A DNA stretch of 64,000 nt from Flavobacterium sp. (GTDB lineage Bacteria > Bacteroidota > Bacteroidia > Flavobacteriales > Flavobacteriaceae), in assembly GCF_017985075.1 (NCBI RefSeq), contig NZ_JAGNYF010000001.1, forward strand, positions 62,001 through 126,000, written 5' to 3'. The translations under genes and the position numbers were made by a program. The notes under the pieces are model-generated. The model saw only the letters and a list, made by a program, of their open reading frames with translations, made no database searches and had not been told where the DNA came from. Every line of letters begins with the position of its first letter. Position 1 is the stretch's first letter. This document shows positions 46,418 through 64,000 of this stretch, piece after piece.

Positions 46418-46490
46418 CGCGGGATAGAGCAGTAGGCAGCTCGTCGGGCTCATAACCCGAAGGTCACAGGTTCGAGTCCTGTTCCCGCTA
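46418..46490 (+). tRNA. tRNA-fMet (CAT), initiator
   Basis: A complete cloverleaf: acceptor GCGGGA with TCCCGC, D arm, anticodon stem TCGGG/CCCGA around CTCATAA (anticodon CAT), and T arm ACAGG-TTCGAGT-CCTGT. Initiator marks are the three G-C pairs below the anticodon loop and the unpaired first base (C1 opposite T72). No CCA is encoded (CTA follows A73). It is the probable attachment site of the element to its right. Confidence 0.95.
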
Positions 46491-48087
46491 CTAAAGAGGA
46501 CCCATCCCATTTTTGAGGATGGGTTTTTTGTTTTTCAGAATTATAACTCTCTGAAATACATTTAGTTAACTCGAACAAAGCATTGGTTTTTGATGTTCGA
46601 TATTTTCTATTTTGGATCGAATAATGAAACCCTTCTGGAAACACCAAATATTGGAACTTTCTTTTTTTATTATAATCCAAAGAATCATAGAATTTACTAG
46701 GGTTTTGGACGATTTTTAGAAAATATTTCGTAGCATTTTCATTGTTCGATATTTTTGTTGGTAAAAAATCAAGTTCTTTTGTTTTTTCAATAATTGCGTC
46801 ATTGATTTTTTTACTTTGTCTGTCAAAAATATCTTTTGAAATTTCATTAATTGCATATCGATATTCCATTTTATCATAACTTTCTTTCAGGTTATTTAAT
46901 TCCATAGAAGCAAGTCTTTTTTTCTCAGAAAAATCAGACAATTCATTGTCGATTATTTTTTTTAATTGAGCCGAAAACAAACCTTTTAAATTATCCGAAA
47001 ATTTAAATTCGTCTAGAACCTGTTTAAATTCGTTATTTAGACCAACATTTTGAGAGCTTTTAGTGCTTTCAGCATTCACGGTTTTGTGGCAAGAATTACA
47101 TTTATAATAATGTATATTTCTGCTTTTATTTAAATAGGCGGTCATAGTATCGTCACAATCGGAACACATAGCAAATTTTGGAACAAGAGGAGTTTCTTCT
47201 TTACCTGTAATTTTTACAACACCAAACTGCTTTGAACCTTCGAGAATTCGTTGCAATTGATTATATTCTTTAACAGTTATCATTGGTTCCCAAGACCCCT
47301 TAATTATTCTACCTTCCAATAACGAATTGAATATTCTTCCAGTATAAAACGGATTGCGCCAAATCTCAGAAATCCTTTGTTTTCTCATTTGAACTCCTTT
47401 TGAATTTAACCAATGTATAATTTCAGAATCGGTGTAAGATTTATAAATTTTTAATTTGAAGGCTTCTTTTAAGAATTGACCTTCAGTACTTATCTTAATC
47501 TCTTGAAATGCTTGAACTTTAATTGGGTCTTTTACTCGTGGACCATAATGGTCGTATCCTCTTGGAGTTTTTCCAAATACTTTGCCATTTTCCAATGCGT
47601 TTATTAAACCAGGAATGACTGTGTCCTGACGATTGAAATTTTCCTTTTGAGCATAAAGTAGCTGAGTTGAAAATTCATTTTCTGCTCTTTCGTTAAACGT
47701 ATGATTATCTGTACTTACAGAATACAGAAAAACATTATATTCTTTTCTAAGTTTCACAAAAAGTTGAATATGTTCCGCTCCAGCTCTACCAAATCTACTT
47801 GGGGACCATATTAGTATCATTTTTGGGCGTTTAGAGATAGAAGTTTTCTTTATCCTATCCATAAGCTCTTTTAGCGTACTTTGCGTGTTTATTCGCTTAG
47901 AACTTTCATACTCAGCATCAAACTCTTGGGTTATGATTAATTGATTTTCCTTTGCAAAATCTTTAATTTTGTTTACTTGTGTTTCAATACTTCCATTATT
48001 TACAAATTGGTCTTTAGTGGATACCCTGGTGTAAGACCAAACAATTGCATTTTTAAAATCACTTAGTTTTAAGTTGTTGTTCTTCAT
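46453..48087 (-). CDS. Large serine recombinase (integrase of the element)
   Basis: The reading frame runs to a TGA within 46450-46452 and codes for 545 aa. The resolvase domain has the nucleophile Ser23 in YTRVSTKDQ and the segment WSPSRFGRAG. The Recombinase domain spans about 185-290, followed by a zinc ribbon (CSDCDDTMTAYL and YKCNSCHK) and a long coiled coil (about 370-460). The last residues, from SSLVAGTGLEPVTFGL, are the antisense of the tRNA-fMet gene, and the bases before them are the tRNA terminator. The natural C-terminus has thus probably been changed by integration or simply reads into host DNA. It overlaps the upstream 64-aa gene by 29 bases. Confidence 0.9.
46500..46530 (+). 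terminator. Intrinsic terminator of tRNA-fMet
   Basis: ACCCATCC (46500-46507) and GGATGGGT (46517-46524) form a perfect 8-base-pair stem followed by six T. It lies inside the 3' end of the convergent recombinase frame. Confidence 0.8.
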
Positions 48088-50714: not shown

Positions 50715-51932
50715 TTAGTTTTCATCATTATTTGTGTTTAACTCATCAAATTTAGCTTTCATTGTTGGATTATTATGCGTTAATTTTTTAATTGTTAAAT
50801 CTTCTGTTTTTTCATTTGCTAGGCGTAGATTGTTTTCAGAGGATAATAATGCGGCTTTAGTTTTTTCTAACTCTTTAATTGTTTTATCAATGCCGTCAAT
50901 AGCTTCATTAAACTTTCGACTGGCTAAATCATAGTTTCTTGCAAAACCTTCTTTGAATTTATTCATTTTATCTTCAAAATGGGTAATATCGATGTTTTGA
51001 CTTCGCACTAGTGCCAATTCAGATTTGTATTGCATCGAACTCATAGCTGCATTGCGTAATAACGTTATGATTGGAATAAAAAACTGAGGACGCACCACAT
51101 ACATTTTAGGATATTTATAAGACACATCAACTATACCCGTATTATATAATTCGCTTTCCGATTCTAACATAGATACTAAAACAGCATATTCGCATTTTTT
51201 TTCAGTACGATCTTTGTCTAATTCTTTTATGAAATCATCGTTACGTTTTTTTGAAGCAGTTGTATCTGCTTCATTTTTCATTTCAAACATTATAGAGATG
51301 ATTTCATTGCCTTGTTCATCAAATTCTTTATAAATATAATCTCCTTTACTTCCGGACCTAGCGTCGTTATCTTTTTCAAAATAGGCTTTTGGAAAAGCTG
51401 TTGGTCGCAATTTGTTAAACTCATTCTCGCAATGTAATTCTAAAGTTTCACCAATCATTTTGGTAGAAAGTTTCGCTTTCATATCTTTAACACGCGCAAT
51501 TTCTTCTTCTTTGTATTTGATGATGGCTTCTTTATTTTGTAATTCAGTAGTGAATTGCTGTTTTAATGTACTCTCTAAATTTTGTTTCTCGAGTTCTTTG
51601 GTTTTAACTTCATTGGCTAATGTATCTCGTTCTTTTTCAATTTTTTGAACGGCTTCAGTAACAGAAAGTTTTTTTTGAATTTCTGCATTATCCAATTGTG
51701 CTTTAAATTGAGCAATCTCATTTTCTTTCTTTTGAATAGTATCTTGAAATGAATTTTTTATTGTAGCTTCTGCTAATTTAACGGCACTTTCTTTTTCTCT
51801 TTCAGCTATCGAAAGGCGTTTCTGAATTTCTTCTTCAAACAAATGGTCCTTAATTTGTTTAGCAATATCAGCGTAACCACTCTCGTCAATTGTAAATGGC
51901 GTTTTACAATTTGGACAGATTATTTCTTTCAT
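50715..51932 (-). CDS. DUF2130 protein, putative PD-(D/E)XK nuclease-like
   Basis: A 405-residue protein. The N-terminus has a zinc knuckle ([17 protein letters not shown]) and a long coiled coil (about residues 30-165). A central domain carries [11 protein letters not shown] and [13 protein letters not shown], which resembles the D...E-x-K core of restriction-endonuclease-like folds, and a second coiled coil follows (about 310-375). This is the DUF2130 layout. Function is not established; a DNA-cutting or DNA-binding role is inference. Confidence 0.75.
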
Positions 51933-52703: not shown

Positions 52704-54356
52704 CTAGTTATTAATGTTAAATCCGATTTTTTGACTGGTCTTTGTTTCTGATTCTTCTTTACAAAGTTTGATGAAAAGTTCATCTAAATTAACATCCTCA
52801 ATGATGCATTGCATGATATATTTTTTACGGATATTATAAATTTGGCCGCCTGTAAAGGAATAGTCTTCTAAAATAGTGTTGATTGTATCCTTTGAGATGT
52901 TTTGAAAAGCATTGGATAGCAAACTAAATTGCGTTTCTTTTGTAGGTTTTTCAAATTCGACTTTATAAAGAAAACGTCTTTCGAATGCTTTGTCCAATTT
53001 TTCTGCATGGTTACTGGTAACAATTGAAATTCCTGAAAATTGCTCCATTTGTTCTAACAAAATATTCTGCATGCTGTTGTGCGTTCGATCGGAGGAATGC
53101 CCCACATCAACGCGCTTTGAAAAGATACTATCTTCGTTGAAGAATAGGATAGGAGTTAGTTCACATTGATTGGAAAACTCGTAATATTCATCGAAGATTT
53201 TCTTGGTATTTTTTTCTGAATCGCCAATCCATTTGTTAGCAATTTTTTCTACATCCACACAAAATAGAGGGCGATTTGTAATTTTAGCTAAGCGTTTAGC
53301 AGTAGCCGTTTTTCCAGTACCAGAAGAGCCATTAAAAATTATAGAAATTCCTTTTGCTAATCCATTATCCATTAATTGATTTACAACTAATTGGTGCTTT
53401 TCTTTACTCAATATCTTTTCTATTGTATTGATTTGTTGCCATTCTGATTCATTGTAAAATAACTCCTCTAAAAATATATCTTCTGGCTGTAATATTGTAG
53501 CTGTTGAAAATGCTTTCTTTTTTGCTTTATTGGTTTCCTTTTGAAACAAAGCATTTTTGGATTTTTCTGTTAATCCTACAAATTCATCAAAAACAAAACC
53601 ATCTTCTTCTTTAAGAAGTAAATCGTTTGTTACTAATGAAGAAGTCTTATTTGCAATACTATCCCTAAATGCTTTTTGTTTTGAAAAATTGTCTTCAATT
53701 TGTTTAATGTGAAATTCTAAATCGATTTGTTCCTCATCTTTTTGATGGGTATAGGCAGCAAATAGAAATAGAATTTTATCCTCAAGTGTTAAATTTGAAA
53801 AACTGTTCAGCCAATTAAGTGACTCATCTTTTGTTGCAGCGTTTAATTCTCGCTCAACGAGTTTTTTTAACGTTGTAGCATCAAAACATCCATCTTTTCG
53901 CTTTCTGAAAATTTCATTTACATTTTTTAATAATTGATTGAAGTTTTCGGCAGGTTTAAATTCCAGTCTTTCTTGCTTATTTTCCAATAAAGCCTCATAG
54001 ATTTTCTCATCTACTTGAAACGTTTGTTTGATTAGGGTTTTGCTAAACTTATTTTTTGTGGTTGATACCACATATCCTTTGGAAATTAGAGAATGTAGGG
54101 CCTTATTAATATGTTTTATACCAGATAATCCACCGCCAAAGTATTCCAAAAAGGCATCAATACCCAGTTCTTCTTGGCGAATTCCACCTTCTATGAGTAT
54201 GGAAAGAACTACCAACTCATTGTAATTAATTTTAAAGAATTTTTGTAGTTCTTTAATCTCAGTTTGTTGCATGAGTGTCTCGTTGTTATTAGTGCCAAAA
54301 CTTTCTCCAACAACATACTCAATGAATTTTAATTTGTCGAATTGTAAATTACTCAT
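52704..54356 (-). CDS. AAA-family ATPase
   Basis: A 550-residue protein. The first 290 or so residues are helical with no recognised motif. The AAA domain (about 320-500) has Walker A GSSGTGKTATAKRL, Walker B PILFFNEDSIF with Asn in place of the first Asp (common in this AAA branch), sensor region SIVTSNHAEKLDKAF and arginine finger RRFLYKVEF. It probably remodels a partner using ATP. Its only plausible promoter lies beyond a tRNA-Leu-like RNA that ends 20 bases before the ATG, so that RNA would be its leader. Confidence 0.8.
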   Translation of the reverse strand: MSNLQFDKLKFIEYVVGESFGTNNNETLMQQTEIKELQKFFKINYNELVVLSILIEGGIRQEELGIDAFLEYFGGGLSGIKHINKALHSLISKGYVVSTTKNKFSKTLIKQTFQVDEKIYEALLENKQERLEFKPAENFNQLLKNVNEIFRKRKDGCFDATTLKKLVERELNAATKDESLNWLNSFSNLTLEDKILFLFAAYTHQKDEEQIDLEFHIKQIEDNFSKQKAFRDSIANKTSSLVTNDLLLKEEDGFVFDEFVGLTEKSKNALFQKETNKAKKKAFSTATILQPEDIFLEELFYNESEWQQINTIEKILSKEKHQLVVNQLMDNGLAKGISIIFNGSSGTGKTATAKRLAKITNRPLFCVDVEKIANKWIGDSEKNTKKIFDEYYEFSNQCELTPILFFNEDSIFSKRVDVGHSSDRTHNSMQNILLEQMEQFSGISIVTSNHAEKLDKAFERRFLYKVEFEKPTKETQFSLLSNAFQNISKDTINTILEDYSFTGGQIYNIRKKYIMQCIIEDVNLDELFIKLCKEESETKTSQKIGFNINN

Positions 54357-56322: not shown

Positions 56323-57043
56323 TTATTCACGATTTCCATTTTTTTCTTTTACCAATTCCGAGTATAACTTACCAAAAAAGTTACAATATTGACATGTATC
56401 ATTTTTATTTGGAATTCTAGGATTAGATAAACAACTGTGTAAATCATTAATAGCTTGACTTATCCAACTATCATTTCCTTCGTAAGGAATAATATGAGAG
56501 TGAAATTCAATTTTATTATTAAAGCATTCGGCATTATTATCTCCTGTGCAATAAACAAAATAAGCCGTATTGGATACTTTTAAGCCGTTTTTTCTGAGTA
56601 ACCATTGGTACACTTCCATCTGCCGCTTGTAACCTGCTGTCCAATCTGCTAATTCTGTTACAGGAGTTTCTTTAGCTGTTGCTTTGTAATCCACTATATG
56701 GTACTCTCCATCTGAATTAATCCATAAATCATCAATTCCTCCATAAATATGTAACTCTCTTTCAATGTCTTTAAATATTACCCCCATGCTGCATAGATTG
56801 TCTCCATTTATCAATCATTGGATGATTGGCAGGAATAGCATCAATATCAAACTCAATTTGTATGGGATGTTTAGTCCCAGCTTCTCGATGACGATCAAAT
56901 TCTTTTTTTAATAAGCTATCAACTGCGTTATTAAGGTTGAAAGGAAATCCTGGAGGTCTTTTTATTTTTTTTTGAATGTCTAAGTAAAAACATCTAGGGC
57001 ACTCTAAAAATAAATCTATTTTGCTGCGAGAAATTTTTATCAT
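56323..57043 (-). pseudogene. PD-(D/E)XK nuclease (Cas4/RecB-like), frameshifted
   Basis: Two overlapping frames make one protein. The first (57043 to the stop near 56771) has ISRSKIDLFLECPRCFYLD with C15 and C18. The second supplies YGGIDDLWINSDGEYHIVDYKATAKE, the nuclease core, then QMEVYQWLLRKNG and the distal cysteines TCQYCNFFG. Cysteines at both ends suggest an iron-sulphur cluster as in Cas4/AddB. Removing one G from the run of five at 56781-56785 (C on the plus strand) joins MQHG to VIFKDIE and restores about 239 residues. It is either a real frameshift, a phase-variable site, or a sequencing error. No CRISPR is nearby. Confidence 0.85.
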
Positions 57044-57107: not shown

Positions 57108-57115
57108 TATTTTTG
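57108..57115 (+). promoter_or_regulatory. Candidate promoter -7 element of the HEPN/STAND operon
   Basis: TATTTTTG fits TAnnTTTG, 34 bases before the first ATG of the operon. No -33 TTTG at the right distance, so support is modest. Confidence 0.4.
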
Positions 57116-57149: not shown

Positions 57150-57941
57150 ATGAAGAAATATTATTTATGGCTATTATTAATTGCGGTACTTCCGATTCAC
57201 TCACAGATTTTAAATGTAGATAGAATTTCAGAGAATGACTCTGTTTTCAAAAAATGGACAGGATATACAGATGTATCATTTAGTTCTGATAAATTAAAAA
57301 AAAATGTACTTGATGGTAGTACAAAGTTTGAACTAAATCACTTTTTAAAAAATAATTATTTTTTTGTTTTTGCTTTGAACAATGATTTTACGCTAAATGG
57401 TAAAGACATGATTCAGAATGAGGGATTTATTCAAGTTCGTTTTAGAGACAAAGATTCAAGAGAATGGAGTAACGAATCATATGCACAATACCAATGGAAT
57501 GGAGCTTTAGGTATGGAATATAGAAAAGTAATTGGTTCGAATGTTAGAAAACGTTTCTTTGAAAAAAAGAAGTTAGATTTATATGCTGGTTTAGGTGTTT
57601 TTCACGAATCGGAGCAATGGAATTGGAGTGGCGTAACTAATTACGAACTATTAGAAACTACACCCACGCTTAATCGTGCCCTTTTTCGTTTAAATAATTA
57701 TTGGAAAATGGCTTATAAAATTAATGAGAATGTGGATATTTCAGCTATTTCTTATTTTCAATTACCTATGAATAGGGGTTTTCTTAATATGAGGTGGTTT
57801 ATGGATATAAATACATACATTAAAATGTCTAAAAATTTGAGTTTTGTCATACATTATGACCATACAATAGATAATTACAGATTAGTACCTGTAGCAAACT
57901 TTTATTATTCGTTAAACTTTGGAATTCAACTAAAATGGTAA
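57150..57941 (+). CDS. Exported beta-barrel-like protein (DUF2490/DUF481-type)
   Basis: A 263-residue protein with signal peptide MKKYYLWLLLIAVLPIHSQ. The body alternates aromatic and polar residues as in outer-membrane barrels, with segments such as GALGMEYRKVIGSNVRKRF, LDLYAGLGVFHESEQW, RLNNYWKMAYKINENVDISAISYFQLP and a terminal NFYYSLNFGIQLKW. This resembles DUF2490/DUF481 proteins. It overlaps the next gene by a few bases, so it is the first member of the operon that ends in the STAND gene. Why an outer-membrane protein would be included is unclear. Confidence 0.6.
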   Translation: MKKYYLWLLLIAVLPIHSQILNVDRISENDSVFKKWTGYTDVSFSSDKLKKNVLDGSTKFELNHFLKNNYFFVFALNNDFTLNGKDMIQNEGFIQVRFRDKDSREWSNESYAQYQWNGALGMEYRKVIGSNVRKRFFEKKKLDLYAGLGVFHESEQWNWSGVTNYELLETTPTLNRALFRLNNYWKMAYKINENVDISAISYFQLPMNRGFLNMRWFMDINTYIKMSKNLSFVIHYDHTIDNYRLVPVANFYYSLNFGIQLKW

Positions 57942-59248
57942 CTATGAGCCAAGATTATACTCAGTATACAATAGATAATTATATCCTTAAAATTACTGGG
58001 GTATTTAATTATGATAAAGATTTTCAAAAGAAAGCTAATGAAGCTACTTATGAAGAGTTGCAGTTTTCTGAAGATTCAGAAAAATTCAGTAAAGATTTTT
58101 TTTATCCTGATTTAAGAAATCAATTTTTTAATAATAATAAAAAAAGACATTCAATATTAGTTAAAAAAAATACTGAAAACTCAATTGTAGATTTATTTAC
58201 TTATCAATTTGATGGAAAAACTAAATCCAAAGAAGTTCAGTTAAAAATAATTGATAGTCGATTGGATTTATTTGAAGAAGGATTTGGATTATTTACTTTA
58301 AATATAAAAATAGAAACTGAGAAAACAGATTTATCAAAATTTTCAGATGCGGCATTTTTAGCACGTAACTTTGAAACTAACATTGAACATTCACACTATG
58401 ATAAATGGCATCAATATATTGAGAAAGAAATATTGGTTGGTGCTAGTACTAGAGGAAATTCAATTAAAGTTGATGAATATTCTGGTTCAAAGTACAAACT
58501 TTACATGATATTAGATATTCCTGAGCTTACCGAAAAAAATGAAATGAAATCGTTACTTTTTGATATTGGTACATTATCTAGAATAGGTTCTGCAATTGGA
58601 AATAACTATGATTCAATGGATAAAGATTATGTAAAGCAATTGACCAATAAAAATGCAATATCTATATTTAATAACTGGGAAGGATTGGCTTTACTTGACA
58701 CCTATACCGTAGTTGGAAATAAAATATTAGATACCGATTGGAAAAAAAGTACTTATTTAAACATTTACCATGGTATTTATCTTTATTGCTTATTTATTAA
58801 ATATAATCTATTTAAATACAATTTTGAAATTGCCGATTTAGATGAAGACAGAAGGTCTAATTTTCAAGATTTTCTGGCTAAATATTACTTTAATTATATT
58901 TCGTATAATTTTTTACCAACCGAAATTTATAATAAAATTAGGACTTCACTTGATATAGAAAAAGAACTACAATTACTTAATGAGAAAATCGTTGCAGTAG
59001 GGCAAAAAATTCAAGAGGAACAACAAGATAAAACCAATAAAATTTTAGGGATTGTTACCGTTCTTACCTCAGTATCTTCTGTACAGCCGGTTTATGATTA
59101 TTTAATTGAAGGACAAAAAATACTAGGATGGAGCTCAGAAATTTATTGGGTAACCACTATTTCAATTGTTCTAGTGCTTGGCGGAGGAGTTGGGTTTTAT
59201 GTATTTGGAAAAAATATATTGAAGTGGATTAAAAAAAGGAATAAATAA
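57935..59248 (+). CDS. Protein with C-terminal membrane helices, unknown (CorA-like layout)
   Basis: A 437-residue protein. About 350 soluble N-terminal residues contain no recognised domain. Then comes a coiled-coil-like helix (LDIEKELQLLNEKIVAVGQKIQEEQQDKTNKI) leading into a moderately hydrophobic helix (ILGIVTVLTSVSSVQPVYDYL) and a strong one (VTTISIVLVLGGGVGFYVFG) near the end, with a Lys-rich tail. The layout recalls CorA-type channels without their GMN motif. The ATG at 57944 is an alternative start. The next gene begins 3 bases after its stop. Possibly a membrane effector. Confidence 0.55.
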   Translation: MVTMSQDYTQYTIDNYILKITGVFNYDKDFQKKANEATYEELQFSEDSEKFSKDFFYPDLRNQFFNNNKKRHSILVKKNTENSIVDLFTYQFDGKTKSKEVQLKIIDSRLDLFEEGFGLFTLNIKIETEKTDLSKFSDAAFLARNFETNIEHSHYDKWHQYIEKEILVGASTRGNSIKVDEYSGSKYKLYMILDIPELTEKNEMKSLLFDIGTLSRIGSAIGNNYDSMDKDYVKQLTNKNAISIFNNWEGLALLDTYTVVGNKILDTDWKKSTYLNIYHGIYLYCLFIKYNLFKYNFEIADLDEDRRSNFQDFLAKYYFNYISYNFLPTEIYNKIRTSLDIEKELQLLNEKIVAVGQKIQEEQQDKTNKILGIVTVLTSVSSVQPVYDYLIEGQKILGWSSEIYWVTTISIVLVLGGGVGFYVFGKNILKWIKKRNK

Positions 59249-59251
59249 TAC

Positions 59252-61513
59252 ATGGAACAAATTACCTACTATAGCACTTTTCTTAAAGGTATTTTAGATG
59301 CCAATCCATGGATTTGGCATGCGCTTCAGGTATTTATGTTATTAACCTTTTTCCCTAATAAATTTTATTATACATTTCCAAAACCAATTTCAAAGTTTTT
59401 AAATTTTTTTGCAACGTACCACTATATTTATTTAATATTATTCATTTTTAATAAAATAGAAATATGGGGCTTAATTGTTTATGTCCTAGTAATTATTATT
59501 GATAAATTATTTGAAAAATCAAAAGACGAAAAAAATATAGAAACTGGAGATTATTACATATTTACAGTAATGTGGTATAGTCTCAGAATATTATTAATTT
59601 GTTCAATTGTTTTTGCATTAAAAGGAGAGTTTTCTTTAAAATATAGATTAATTATATTATTAATTCATTTATATTATTTCTTTAATCATTTTTTTATTTA
59701 TACAAGAACTAGGAAATACGAAATTCAAGAAAATTTTGTGTCTACCGGTTATTTAAGGTTTTTTTCTCCTAAGTGGATTGGTTTGGTATTAATGCCTTTT
59801 TCATGGGCTTTATGGATACTTATGATTATGAGTTTTTTTGACAAATCGGATGATGAAATACATCCAAAATTTGATTTGGCAAATAGAAACACATTAATAG
59901 ATGACTGGAAAAACAATAGTAGTCATCATACACTTTATTTTATGTTAAATGTATGTGCTATAATTTTTTTAGGTTTTAGTATAGATGCATTTGTATTAAT
60001 TGGATTAATAAATTTCATTTTATATTTCTATTATAATCGAAAATCTAATAATCCTTTAAAAGATTACATCAGTTTTTCTATAATTACGGGGAATCAAAAT
60101 TATTTAAACAATCTTGTGATTTCAAAAAAAATTACCTTTTTGGTTCAAAGAATTTTGATTAAAATTACCGAGGACAGCACTTATGGTGTGTTAGTAAGTC
60201 CATATGAAAAAGTAGTTAATTTTAATAAAGTTCAACATATTGATGAAATATCTAAAGGAGCTCATCATTTGGTGTTAATTGATGGTGGAGATGAATCTGA
60301 TAAAATTATTAGAATTGAAAATGATTTCACAAATTTTTTAGGTCGAGTAGATACAGTAATTGACTATTTTTTTATTGCAAATCAAACTATAGATACATAT
60401 TCAAAACCTATAGAAACCGAACAGGCAAATTGCATTAGAGAACGGATTGCTGTTAAACAAGCAATTATTGATGAAAAGGCATTTGTTTTAGATGATAATC
60501 CTGAAGAAGAAGCAAAAACAATTGATACATTTATCAATTCAATCAATACCGAATCGGTGCGAATTAATATGTTGGTTCGGGAATACTTTAAAGAAAATAA
60601 GACTGATTATGAGCAGTTGCAATCGGAATTGATAAATAATGGACCTTTTGAAATTAATACCCTGTTAAGACAAATGCGCGAAGGTGGTTCGGTGCCTTCT
60701 CGATTTGTAGATGCGCTTTCTATTGCCGAAATAGCAGCCAGGTATTTGTTTAGTTTAACAAATGAATTTAATAATTATTTAGAAAAAAACGAGAATAGTA
60801 TTGAAGATCGAAACTCAAAATATAGTCAATTATCCTTTGGACCATGTGTAGGTTTTTTAAGAACAATTAGCGAAAAAGGAAAACTAAATGCATTTGAGAA
60901 ATCGATAAAAGTACTTCTAAAAACAAAGTATACAGATAGTGATAATTTTGAAAGATTAAAAAAGTACTTAATTACAGATTTACATTACGACAAAAAAGTG
61001 TCTGATGAACCAATCCTATTCGATTTATTTAATTATTTGGCTTATATTCGAAATAAAACAAGAGGTCATGGAACGCCAAGTAAAGTGGAATTTGAATTTT
61101 ATGTAACCTTAGATTTAATCTCTATATTTATAGTTCATTGTATTTCGAAAATCGAAATTGAAACCTTCAGCAGACAAATAATCAACGACAAAGAATGGTT
61201 GTTGTATTATAATGCTGGTGGAAATGTTGTTTTACATCCGTTAGATACCAATGAAAATTTAGAATATTGGAAAGATTCTTTTGATTGGAAGTATCTAGAC
61301 AAAATGGAGGAAGCTAAAAACATTATTCAGAAAACTAATCAATCGGTCTATTTAAAGATTAAATATCAGGAAGAAATTCATTGGATTAAAGCAGAAACCT
61401 TTTTTAAATGTAAAGAAGGAATCATTTACATGTATGACGGCATTAATAAAGACGAAGCCGAGTGGATAAGTTTTACAACTGGTGCTGTAATTAGACCATA
61501 TAGAATTAATTAA
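59252..61513 (+). CDS. Polytopic membrane protein with C-terminal HEPN-like domain
   Basis: A 753-residue protein. The first 265 or so residues hold about eight membrane helices (for example WGLIVYVLVIIID, WYSLRILLICSIVFAL and WIGLVLMPFSWALWILMIM). Residues about 275-480 are soluble. A helical domain at about 490-650 contains R600-N-K-T-R-G-H606 in FNYLAYIRNKTRGHG, which fits the HEPN RNase motif R-x4-6-H with the usual Asn after Arg. The last 100 residues are unrecognised and look beta-rich. The STAND protein of the same operon has a similar motif. I infer a membrane-anchored toxin or sensor. Confidence 0.65.
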   Translation: MEQITYYSTFLKGILDANPWIWHALQVFMLLTFFPNKFYYTFPKPISKFLNFFATYHYIYLILFIFNKIEIWGLIVYVLVIIIDKLFEKSKDEKNIETGDYYIFTVMWYSLRILLICSIVFALKGEFSLKYRLIILLIHLYYFFNHFFIYTRTRKYEIQENFVSTGYLRFFSPKWIGLVLMPFSWALWILMIMSFFDKSDDEIHPKFDLANRNTLIDDWKNNSSHHTLYFMLNVCAIIFLGFSIDAFVLIGLINFILYFYYNRKSNNPLKDYISFSIITGNQNYLNNLVISKKITFLVQRILIKITEDSTYGVLVSPYEKVVNFNKVQHIDEISKGAHHLVLIDGGDESDKIIRIENDFTNFLGRVDTVIDYFFIANQTIDTYSKPIETEQANCIRERIAVKQAIIDEKAFVLDDNPEEEAKTIDTFINSINTESVRINMLVREYFKENKTDYEQLQSELINNGPFEINTLLRQMREGGSVPSRFVDALSIAEIAARYLFSLTNEFNNYLEKNENSIEDRNSKYSQLSFGPCVGFLRTISEKGKLNAFEKSIKVLLKTKYTDSDNFERLKKYLITDLHYDKKVSDEPILFDLFNYLAYIRNKTRGHGTPSKVEFEFYVTLDLISIFIVHCISKIEIETFSRQIINDKEWLLYYNAGGNVVLHPLDTNENLEYWKDSFDWKYLDKMEEAKNIIQKTNQSVYLKIKYQEEIHWIKAETFFKCKEGIIYMYDGINKDEAEWISFTTGAVIRPYRIN

Positions 61514-61523
61514 AAATACTCAA

Positions 61524-61742
61524 ATGATAAAAAATTATAAAGTAATGCCTTTAGGTATTAAGATAGATGAGAAAGCTAGTGCGTCTGATGTAGCAAAAAA
61601 ACTGCAAGATTTTATCAATGCAAATTCTGGAAATAAGTCAGAATTTATAAAATTTGAAACTGTTCCCGTAAAAGTTATCAATAGTGTTGATGGTGCTCAA
61701 ACTTCAAAAGAGTATACAGTTTGTATTTTTAAAGAGTTATAA
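61524..61742 (+). CDS. Small protein, 72 aa (DUF4177-like)
   Basis: A 72-residue protein, NYKVMPLGIKIDEKASASDVAKKLQDFINANSG then EFIKFETVPVKV and KEYTVCIFKEL, a beta-alpha-beta-beta pattern close to DUF4177-type proteins. It starts 10 bases after the HEPN-like gene, and its TAA abuts the ATG of the STAND gene. Likely a small partner, sensor or inhibitor in the system; this is inference. Confidence 0.6.
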   Translation: MIKNYKVMPLGIKIDEKASASDVAKKLQDFINANSGNKSEFIKFETVPVKVINSVDGAQTSKEYTVCIFKEL

Positions 61743-64000
61743 ATGAGTTTCAATTGTCAAACCCCATCTTGCGCTATTGCAATTTCTAAAGCTGAGTTTC
61801 CAGTAGCGATAAATTGTCCTGTATGTCAAACACCACTTTCGGAAGTTGTTGATTCTTTATCACAAGAAGATATAGCTTTAATTGATTCACTTCCTTATGT
61901 TATTGCTTATCCATTACAACAGACACTTTTAGAAAAAAACGCATCTCAACGGTTGAATTTTTTGAGAGATACTTTTTTGAATTACCTCAAATATTTAGGA
62001 TTGCTGACCGCCTCTGAATTCTTCAATAGTCCTTTTAAAGATCGAAAAATAGTAGATTTATTTTTACAAAATTTAGCGCAACCTTCTTTCGGTTCTTGGA
62101 ATGCTTTTACTAGAGAATGCTTATTATATTTAAAAACTCAAAAGCATGTTTTTTTCTGTCCTGATTTATTGGAATATTATGATACCGTTGAAACAGGCAA
62201 AAAAAGAAAAATATATAATGGGGAAATAGAGGTAATTGATTCTTATAATGGTGGAGAAATTAAACAAATAAAGCAAACCGCTACTGGGATTGGTATGCTT
62301 ATTAATTTTAGAAATCGCTATTTAGGTCATGGATTAACTTTGGATTCGGTAATTTCTGAAAACTTATGGAATGACTATTTTCCTATTTTTAGAACATTAT
62401 TAGAGCAACTTACTTTTAGTGAAAAGTTTCCAATGTTGAAACAAGAAGCAACAGTTTATTTTTCCTTACAAGGAATCGAAATAAAACCATTTGAAACCAA
62501 TATCACTATTGATTCTAATGTTTCTATTTACAATAGAGATACTAATGCAAGTATGCCTATTATCCCGTTTTTTATTATTCCTGGTGAATTAGCTATTGAA
62601 AGTTATGAAAAAGCCAATATTATGTCTTATGAATCTAATAACGGTAAAACTATTACTTTTTTTAGTCCTGAAGGCATAATAAAGCAAACTTCGGGAAAAC
62701 TATTAGAACGGCTTAATTTATTGTTGCGAGATAAACAAAAAGAAATTCCTTTTACTCCTGAAACTTTTACAAAAGAGGTATTTGTAGAACGCATCGCCGA
62801 AGAAAATAAATTAATGTTGAAATCATTACTTAATGAAAAAAAAGTAATCGAAGGAATTTACCAATATCGGGAAGAGATGGAAATCAAATTGCGCGAATGG
62901 ATTGGTGCTCGTGCCAATATCTTTTTTATTGCAGCTGAGGCTGGTAGTGGAAAAACCAATTTGTTAGTTGAAATGCAAAAGCAATATGTAGAACGTAATT
63001 TAACAAGTTTGTTAATTCGTGCTTCGCGCATGGAAAAATCCTCTTTAAAAGAAGAATTATGTTTCCAATTGAATATGGATTATTCTTTGGATATAGCAAG
63101 ATATACTGCATTGGCCGGAACGCAATTCGAACCTTCTTTTATTTTGATAGATGGATTAAATGAATCCTCAAATGCAGAAGCTTTTTGGCAAGAAATTCTT
63201 GAAATTTCTAGTGCTTTCGAACCAGGATGTCTTAAGTTTGTTATTACTAACAGAGCCAATACAAGAACAGATTTAGACCGCTATGTTATTACCGAAGACC
63301 AAATGCAATATATCTATGGTGAAAACAAAGGTCATGAAGCCAGAATAAGTGCTTTTACTTTTTGGTTAACGCCTCTAGATATGAAGGAAATGGAGAGTGC
63401 ATGGGATAGTTACGTTACAAAAGATAAAAATCGTTTCAAACCATTATTTTCATTTAATGACATTGCCACTTTTGATAGAGGATTATACCTGCAAATTAAC
63501 AACCCTTTGGTTTTGCGTATTTTCTTAGAAACGTATAAAGGTAAAAACCTTCCCAAAAAAGGCACGAAACACTTACACGTTTGGAAAGACTGGTTCGCAA
63601 CCTTCTCAATTGAAGAACAAAAATTTATGACTCTTTTAGCGGATGCTGTTTGGGAACAAGGCGAAAATGAATTGTTGTTGGATACGGTATTAAACAATAA
63701 AAACTTACAACTATATTTTCTAAATGATACTACTAATGCTCCATATCAACGTTTATTAACTTTAGGTTGGATAAGCCGATATATAAAAGATTTAACAGTT
63801 TATGTGAGTTTTACCGTAGAAGGGCTTTTATTGTATTTATTAGGCACAAAATTAAACCAACTAAATCCGATACTTACAACAGTTGCAATTGATGAAATAT
63901 TAGCAAAAGGAACCAAACTACAAAAATCTGCGATTGAATCTTTTTTATGCGAACAAGCCTTAGAAGGTAAAATTGATTTGATTGCACAATTAATAGATGA
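61743..64000 (+). CDS. Zinc-ribbon/HEPN-like/STAND NTPase, C-terminus beyond window
   Basis: The frame is open from ATG 61743 to the window edge (at least 752 aa). An N-terminal zinc ribbon has C5, C10, C25 and C28 (NCQTPSC and INCPVCQTPL). A helical domain at about 90-230 has R190-N-R-Y-L-G-H196 in LINFRNRYLGHG, a HEPN-like R-x5-H motif. The NTPase follows: Walker A AAEAGSGKTNL (about 397-405), Walker B FILIDGLNES with Asp470, and FVITNRANTR as the sensor strand, the pattern of STAND ATPases. Helical sequence continues to the edge. STAND proteins act as triggered oligomeric switches in anti-phage defence. Confidence 0.75.
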   Translation, partial: MSFNCQTPSCAIAISKAEFPVAINCPVCQTPLSEVVDSLSQEDIALIDSLPYVIAYPLQQTLLEKNASQRLNFLRDTFLNYLKYLGLLTASEFFNSPFKDRKIVDLFLQNLAQPSFGSWNAFTRECLLYLKTQKHVFFCPDLLEYYDTVETGKKRKIYNGEIEVIDSYNGGEIKQIKQTATGIGMLINFRNRYLGHGLTLDSVISENLWNDYFPIFRTLLEQLTFSEKFPMLKQEATVYFSLQGIEIKPFETNITIDSNVSIYNRDTNASMPIIPFFIIPGELAIESYEKANIMSYESNNGKTITFFSPEGIIKQTSGKLLERLNLLLRDKQKEIPFTPETFTKEVFVERIAEENKLMLKSLLNEKKVIEGIYQYREEMEIKLREWIGARANIFFIAAEAGSGKTNLLVEMQKQYVERNLTSLLIRASRMEKSSLKEELCFQLNMDYSLDIARYTALAGTQFEPSFILIDGLNESSNAEAFWQEILEISSAFEPGCLKFVITNRANTRTDLDRYVITEDQMQYIYGENKGHEARISAFTFWLTPLDMKEMESAWDSYVTKDKNRFKPLFSFNDIATFDRGLYLQINNPLVLRIFLETYKGKNLPKKGTKHLHVWKDWFATFSIEEQKFMTLLADAVWEQGENELLLDTVLNNKNLQLYFLNDTTNAPYQRLLTLGWISRYIKDLTVYVSFTVEGLLLYLLGTKLNQLNPILTTVAIDEILAKGTKLQKSAIESFLCEQALEGKIDLIAQLID

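Follow-up and report, generated by a model that had tools for sequence, protein, structure and literature searches.

The 64,000-nucleotide stretch of Flavobacterium sp. DNA analysed here (the window; G000:C89:62001-126000, part of a 154,723-base contig) contains the left-hand portion of an operon of eight genes that is linked to a convergent block of envelope genes. This linked cluster, which lies mostly past the window edge, is its more interesting feature. Judged from the encoded proteins, the cluster looks like an undescribed self-defence machine joining an internal sensor, a STAND nucleoside triphosphatase (NTPase), to membrane and cell-wall proteins. Its gene content and order, its conservation in a second genome, the intact NTPase motifs and the co-occurrence with the envelope block were read directly from the sequence. 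With a probability of about 0.5, the operon and the block would form one envelope-coupled, STAND-triggered conflict system, probably directed against phages or other invaders.

Five plus-strand open reading frames (ORFs) with intergenic gaps of -7, +3, +10 and 0 bases occupy the right end of the window. Gene 1 (57150..57941) encodes a predicted outer-membrane beta-barrel-like protein (OMP) of 263 aa with a signal-like N-terminus; gene 2 (57935..59248), a CorA-like membrane protein of 437 aa with a C-terminal coiled coil and membrane segments and without a GMN motif; gene 3 (59252..61513), a polytopic membrane protein of 753 aa carrying a C-terminal RNKTRGHG at residues 600-607 and HEPN-like by motif only; gene 4 (61524..61742), a 72-aa product that is not conserved; and gene 5 (61743..63998, open at the window end), the first 752 of the 1378 residues of the STAND protein, with a Cys4 N-terminus, an HEPN-like domain (residues 38-246) and Walker A/B motifs. 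A first-pass annotation of the window had reported these five genes with their gaps, RNKTRGH (600-606), RNRYLGH (190-196) and the Walker A/B motifs, all of which were confirmed in the sequence. Its count of five genes holds within the window, the number being set by the edge that cuts the operon; eight genes are present on the contig. Reading to the right of position 64000 showed that the STAND gene continues to contig position 127879 and encodes tetratricopeptide repeats (TPRs), giving a protein of 1378 aa. Downstream of it, also on the plus strand, lie genes for a leucine-rich repeat (LRR) protein (907 aa), a MoxR-like AAA+ protein (385 aa) and a vWA-like protein (405 aa). Because the downstream gaps are 16, -4 and 1 bases, the eight co-directed genes read as one operon. 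The LRR protein matched LRR_EndoS (9e-9) and the MoxR-like protein AAA_5 (2.1e-5). The 405-aa protein combines an N-terminal metallopeptidase-like domain (DUF2201_N, 4e-17; HELLH) with a C-terminal vWA-like domain (DUF2201, 8e-18) at residues 281-404, after which no effector domain follows. The earlier proposal of two matched HEPN halves thus omits much of the cluster, namely the LRR-MoxR-vWA part and the envelope block beyond the window edge.

The cluster is rare and its presence is very patchy. Among 199 related genomes, the 753-aa membrane protein gave matches in three: the window genome, G064 with two copies in tandem, and, weakly, G058 (28% over 160 aa, E 3.8e-4), the last lying inside a SusD-like ORF by reading and judged to be chance. 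The profile of this protein detected only the window's own copy in 395 genomes of the phylum, and a scan of genome contigs with two peptide patterns returned one locus, the G064 contig. STAND relatives were present in 3 of 35 genomes tested (the window genome, G064 and G037), MoxR relatives in 2 of 27, and full-length LRR relatives in 2 of 199; LRR matches in G014, G033, G085 and G096 were taken as generic repeat matches. Viral-contig scans gave nothing useful, and searches of plasmids and phages, with either the membrane protein or residues 1-751 of STAND as query, were likewise unproductive. The gene order that the first-pass annotation proposed to look for in other genomes was recovered in large part in G064, a member of the same genus, where seven of the eight genes are kept (OMP, CorA-like, membrane protein in two copies, STAND, LRR, MoxR, vWA). 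The membrane gene is doubled there and the 72-aa gene is missing, with just 3 bases between the second membrane gene and STAND; the sole PADLOC match of the 72-aa product was weak (0.0064). Relatives of the OMP were found in G064, G037 and G236 (68%, 61% and 39% identity); its match to DUF481 (E 0.0028) was under the family cut-off. PDB sequence searches with the OMP, CorA-like, HEPN-like and MoxR proteins returned no match.

The envelope block is convergent to the operon and begins about 1.5 kb past the vWA gene with a DUF350 gene (2e-11), followed by genes for transglutaminase-like, OmpA, DUF4407-like and DUF4407 proteins and then by a 213-aa gene. The transglutaminase-like protein matched DUF553 under the cut-off (0.001), with GDC and GHS conserved in all four relatives read. 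The OmpA protein matched OmpA (7e-23) and ZorB models (1e-11), and the DUF4407-like protein and its DUF4407 neighbour gave 0.002 (under the cut-off) and 5e-57, respectively. The full-length block OmpA was detected in four of the seven CorA-like carriers, G000, G064, G037 and G236 (975, 587, 627 and 296 bits), which are the same four in which the OMP gene was found; the OMP check in the other three (G101, G185 and G174) covered the fetched neighbourhood only and was made by eye in G101. The full-length OmpA protein was found neither in these three nor in any of 39 same-genus controls; matches limited to the OmpA domain, at 1e-20, were seen in four of these controls and in G174. The Fisher p value of 2e-4 (4/7 vs 0/39) ignores relatedness and incomplete assemblies and comes from a test chosen after the linkage had been seen in G000 and G236. 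In G236, which belongs to another family, OMP and CorA adjoin the block, and in G037 a STAND protein 41% identical to that of the window is encoded on the same contig as the block. The convergent layout in G037 and G064 can be called only likely, because the G037 contig ends share 31-aa repeats (81-91% DNA identity) without exact overlap and the G064 ends are insertion-sequence-like by eye.

On the contig bearing the block, G064 and G236 also encode proteins with HLEPxYLRYIYDG-like starts and two HEPN-motif proteins (43-53% identity), a set that recurs in G174. The HLEPxYLRYIYDG-start proteins of G064 matched no Pfam, PADLOC or NCBIfam family, and three of the four set proteins in this genome were without a family match. 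The block therefore looks, from these recurrent neighbours, like a chassis for exchangeable STAND/HEPN cassettes. This recurrent set, a second one besides the operon (L081:1595-10410, L082:1-9605 and L029:12435-19998), consists of HLEPxYLRYIYDG-like starters, an RNxVMH protein of about 510 aa and a HEPN-motif/NTPase protein of about 497 aa, and in the three genomes it lies near genes of the transglutaminase-like and DUF350 types. No account of the DUF4407-OmpA-transglutaminase-like-DUF350 block was found in the literature searched.

The STAND protein has cysteines at positions 5, 10, 25 and 28. Its Walker A (AAEAGSGKT, 397-405) and Walker B (ILIDGLNE) motifs are intact in all three STAND relatives, and by these motifs the NTPase looks active. 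RNRYLGH at residues 190-196 is identical in the three family members, and the more distant G037 STAND carries RNEYAH. The HEPN-like domain was predicted as a helical bundle in which RN-x4-H ends a long helix, and its top three structural neighbours were HEPN toxins. Pfam HEPN models did not match any of the window proteins, STAND included, and a Foldseek search of PDB gave nothing useful; the fold evidence is weak, and the assignment of the STAND N-terminus as HEPN-like, by motif and predicted fold, is not conclusive. The TPRs lie past the window edge. Among the matches listed, STAND retrieved only TPR structures from the PDB sequences, and the full-length protein matched plasmids in the TPR region. 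The TPR array of the G064 STAND (L007:5300-9514) consists of near-identical 42-residue repeats (self-identity 0.63), and that of the window copy has drifted. A STAND gene of G037 ends in 31-aa tandem repeats, another fast-amplifying repeat surface, which recur at another contig end with 81-91% DNA identity (L026:14880-14958 and L080:13985-14986).

In the 753-aa membrane protein, RNKTRGH is identical in all three copies. Hydrophobic segments were located at residues 58-84, 102-124, 174-197 and 226-261 and, just past the motif, at 614-632. Identity among the three copies is 34-36% over residues 1-270 and 89-92% over 421-753, a pattern in which the membrane half has diversified and the soluble part has stayed constant. 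Shuffling gave expectations of 1.5 (753-aa protein) and 1.1 (STAND) occurrences of R-x4-6-H against the 2 and 1 observed; this frequency is at chance level, and the rule that R-x4-6-H means HEPN was rejected. The longer pattern RN-x3-4-HG is rare, being reached in 16 of 5000 shuffles for the 753-aa protein and 7 of 5000 for STAND, and is present in both. No Pfam HEPN match was obtained for the 753-aa protein up to E 10, profile comparison with the HEPN-like domain of STAND found no similarity past the motif (Prob 0.3), and the AlphaFold model had a predicted local distance difference test score (pLDDT) of 33 and was unusable for a HEPN fold around R600/H606. Weak Pfam matches (Meth_synt_1, HEAT_ECM29, VirD1 and others) were taken as chance. 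Of the two HEPN-like proteins proposed at first, the STAND protein thus retains motif and predicted fold, and the 753-aa protein, with its motif alone, is kept as a HEPN hypothesis.

The first-pass description of gene 2 as CorA-like was borne out by the PADLOC CorA match (1.5e-13), and all six relatives read matched as well (2e-19 to 2.3e-8). Carriers numbered six with strong matches among the 199 related genomes (G000, G037, G064, G101, G174 and G185) and two among the 395 phylum genomes (G236 and the window genome), after removal of two weak 50-aa matches (in G039 and at a second place in G000). Among the matches listed in the CorA-model search, most other genomes aligned only over roughly the final 100 model positions. 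Five CRISPR-type CorAs, taken from the best five genomes of this search (3.5e-69 to 1.1e-120), served for comparison; Cmr2 adjoins CorA in the two of these genomes checked by profile (G533 and G210), and the remaining three have Cmr-like surroundings by eye in ORF listings. The profile comparison gave E 1.6e-7, with the alignment confined to the C-terminal 154 columns and the N-terminal part of the family outside it. The Cmr2 profile TIGR02577 matched none of the seven CorA-like carriers and was found in both positive controls, with four carrier assemblies less than 90% complete and Csm1-type Cas10 not tested. None of the six relatives has a GMN near the C-terminus, after the first membrane helix (GIN stands there in G174), and GMN or GLN occurs in 3 of 5 CRISPR-type CorAs. 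An ordinary Mg2+ transporter was rejected for the CorA-like protein, which lacks GMN. The CorA gene is neighboured in G037 by a STAND gene with an HEPN-like N-terminus; in G185 by a DUF4145 gene (1.7e-5), which we take to be a HEPN relative; in G174 by transglutaminase-like and DUF350-like genes and then by convergent HEPN-motif and NTPase genes; and in G236 by OMP and GNAT-type genes, with HEPN-motif genes farther along the contig. In G101 the CorA-like gene runs off the contig end.

Upstream of gene 1, a TAnnTTTG motif (TATTTTTG; 57108..57115, plus strand), resembling the Bacteroidota-type promoter consensus, lies 42 bases 5' of the first start codon; it is a pattern match and no evidence of function. 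Two overlapping minus-strand ORFs directly upstream of the operon (56323-57043) appear by eye to be one nuclease-like gene split over two frames. Elsewhere in the same island, a DUF2130 protein (1e-89) is encoded at 50715-51932. Models of the anti-phage protein IetA matched (8e-25) a 550-aa ATPase encoded at 52704-54356, which a 551-aa AAA protein beyond the window on the same contig (L009:14265-15920) resembles by eye. A gene for a large serine recombinase-like protein (46450-48087, minus strand; Resolvase 6e-14, Recombinase 2e-8) overlaps a tRNA-Met (46418-46491) with its end, which makes it plausible that a mobile element has its left edge here; no second copy of the tRNA end turned up rightward as far as the right end of the contig.

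In the proposed conflict system, the repeat regions of STAND (TPRs) and of the LRR protein would recognise an infection-associated ligand, and ATP-driven assembly of STAND would switch on the HEPN-like domain, probably an RNase. The MoxR AAA+ protein and the vWA/metallopeptidase-like protein may control the threshold or act in remodelling of the complex. The CorA-like and 753-aa proteins would serve as membrane effectors, with membrane damage caused by the former, which would probably be activated by a protein partner and not by S-adenosyl methionine-AMP (SAM-AMP), because no Cmr2 was found. The OMP and the OmpA/DUF4407/transglutaminase-like/DUF350 block could anchor the machine to peptidoglycan and the outer membrane for breach sensing or damage delivery. 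A fuller formulation is offered tentatively and is rather doubtful as a whole: a CRISPR-free trans-envelope immune machine in which an NLR-like HEPN-STAND-TPR sensor-RNase, regulated by LRR and MoxR-vWA proteins, acts through a CorA-type pore and a polytopic HEPN-like membrane effector on a common OmpA/DUF4407/transglutaminase-like chassis tied to peptidoglycan and the outer membrane, with exchangeable STAND/HEPN recognition cassettes. The interpretation given by the first-pass annotation is partly right: at the level of sequence, the conflict-type operon it suggested is supported in its multi-gene make-up and active-looking NTPase.

It is possible but doubtful that the island houses two independent systems, one being the cytoplasmic STAND/LRR/MoxR-vWA operon together with its membrane effectors and the other a neighbouring envelope-maintenance or stress cluster formed by the block. 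The operon and block lie on opposite strands in the window genome, the G236 block sits with OMP and CorA without STAND-LRR-MoxR-vWA relatives, and DUF350 and OmpA occur in envelope-stress operons according to the excerpted text of PMC11237479. Such independence is nevertheless at odds with the distribution of the block OmpA, which at full length is present in just those four carriers in which OMP was found and in 0 of 39 controls, with the adjacency in two families, and with the G037 STAND of the window family on the block's contig. The many envelope-protein genes, and the role of MoxR-vWA pairs as assembly chaperones in several known systems (excerpts of PMC7159879), would also suit a non-immune envelope-stress or remodelling machine, with STAND, LRR and MoxR-vWA as sensor and chaperones in the assembly of membrane and outer-membrane proteins. 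This is unlikely, however, since very patchy presence, HEPN-type motifs, exchangeable STAND/HEPN cassettes and a diversified N-terminal half of the membrane protein resemble conflict genes. Gating of the CorA-like protein by SAM-AMP, as in type III CRISPR, with the cluster borrowing or making the nucleotide signal, is highly improbable: the PADLOC CorA matches in 6 of 6 relatives and the profile E of 1.6e-7 to CRISPR-type CorA speak for it, but the similarity is limited to the C-terminal part, Cmr2 was not matched in 7 of 7 carriers and was found in 2 of 2 positive controls (Csm1-type Cas10 not tested), and family scans of the operon proteins revealed no recognisable cyclase, NrN or lyase.

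If the envelope-coupled conflict system is real, it would place CorA-type immune effectors outside CRISPR, coupled to NLR-like STAND sensors, would set the DUF4407-OmpA-transglutaminase-like-DUF350 block in a conflict context, and would place next to Zorya another immune architecture anchored in the envelope. The system also raises the question of whether a cytoplasmic STAND sensor acts through a peptidoglycan- and outer-membrane-anchored machine.

The view that the cluster fits no named system stood, as the scans made against PADLOC, Pfam and NCBIfam gave no whole-length match, and no description of this gene combination was recognised in a search of open-licence papers. What it has in common with the MoxR-vWA ternary systems (iSTAND and VMAP types; PMC7159879, in excerpt) is a MoxR AAA+ gene next to a vWA gene, with a STAND-type protein encoded in the same operon, as well as repeats and, as excerpted for some iSTAND systems, envelope domains such as OmpA. 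The excerpts describe an inactive STAND in these systems and mention OmpA and PEGA in some, whereas the STAND here has intact Walker motifs and so is not iSTAND; VMAP was not specifically searched. The vWA protein here is of the DUF2201 type, has a metallopeptidase-like domain at its N-terminus and lacks a C-terminal effector, and CorA-like, OMP and 753-aa membrane genes are added. The CorA effector of type III-B CRISPR (PMC10600005 and PMC12255297, in excerpt) has in common the C-terminal coiled coil and membrane part and the PADLOC CorA match. According to the excerpt of PMC10600005, it pairs with NrN or other SAM-AMP-degrading enzymes; no Cmr2 was found in the carriers here, the family lacks GMN and has an N-terminal part that is not alignable, and the partners are STAND, HEPN-like and OMP proteins with no recognised SAM-AMP-degrading enzyme. 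As in Avs and other STAND/NACHT immune proteins, a STAND NTPase is combined with an N-terminal effector-like domain and C-terminal repeats. Avs2 models match the NTPase stretch (at 1.4e-7 in the part inside the window and at 3e-12 in G064), but over about 110-150 residues of 1500, and the full-length window STAND matched no PADLOC family at E 0.01; the whole-protein Avs architecture is not present, and the HEPN-like N-terminus, TPRs and seven further operon genes are different. The STAND domain resembles HEPN ribonucleases in its RN-x4-H, which terminates a long helix, and in its predicted helical bundle, whose top three structural neighbours are HEPN toxins; it differs in being fused to a STAND NTPase, in its weak fold evidence and, like the other window proteins, in having no Pfam HEPN match. 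In Zorya (ZorAB), the OmpA-domain protein is ZorB, to which the similarity is confined to the OmpA domain and lead-in; no ZorC or ZorD was identified, and the OmpA partner here is DUF4407 and not a recognised ZorA (PADLOC assigned no family to the DUF4407 neighbour, in a scan that did not extend to the 385-aa neighbour). What the cluster shares with Zorya is the match of its block OmpA protein to ZorB models (1e-11) and the idea of a defence machine anchored in the envelope.

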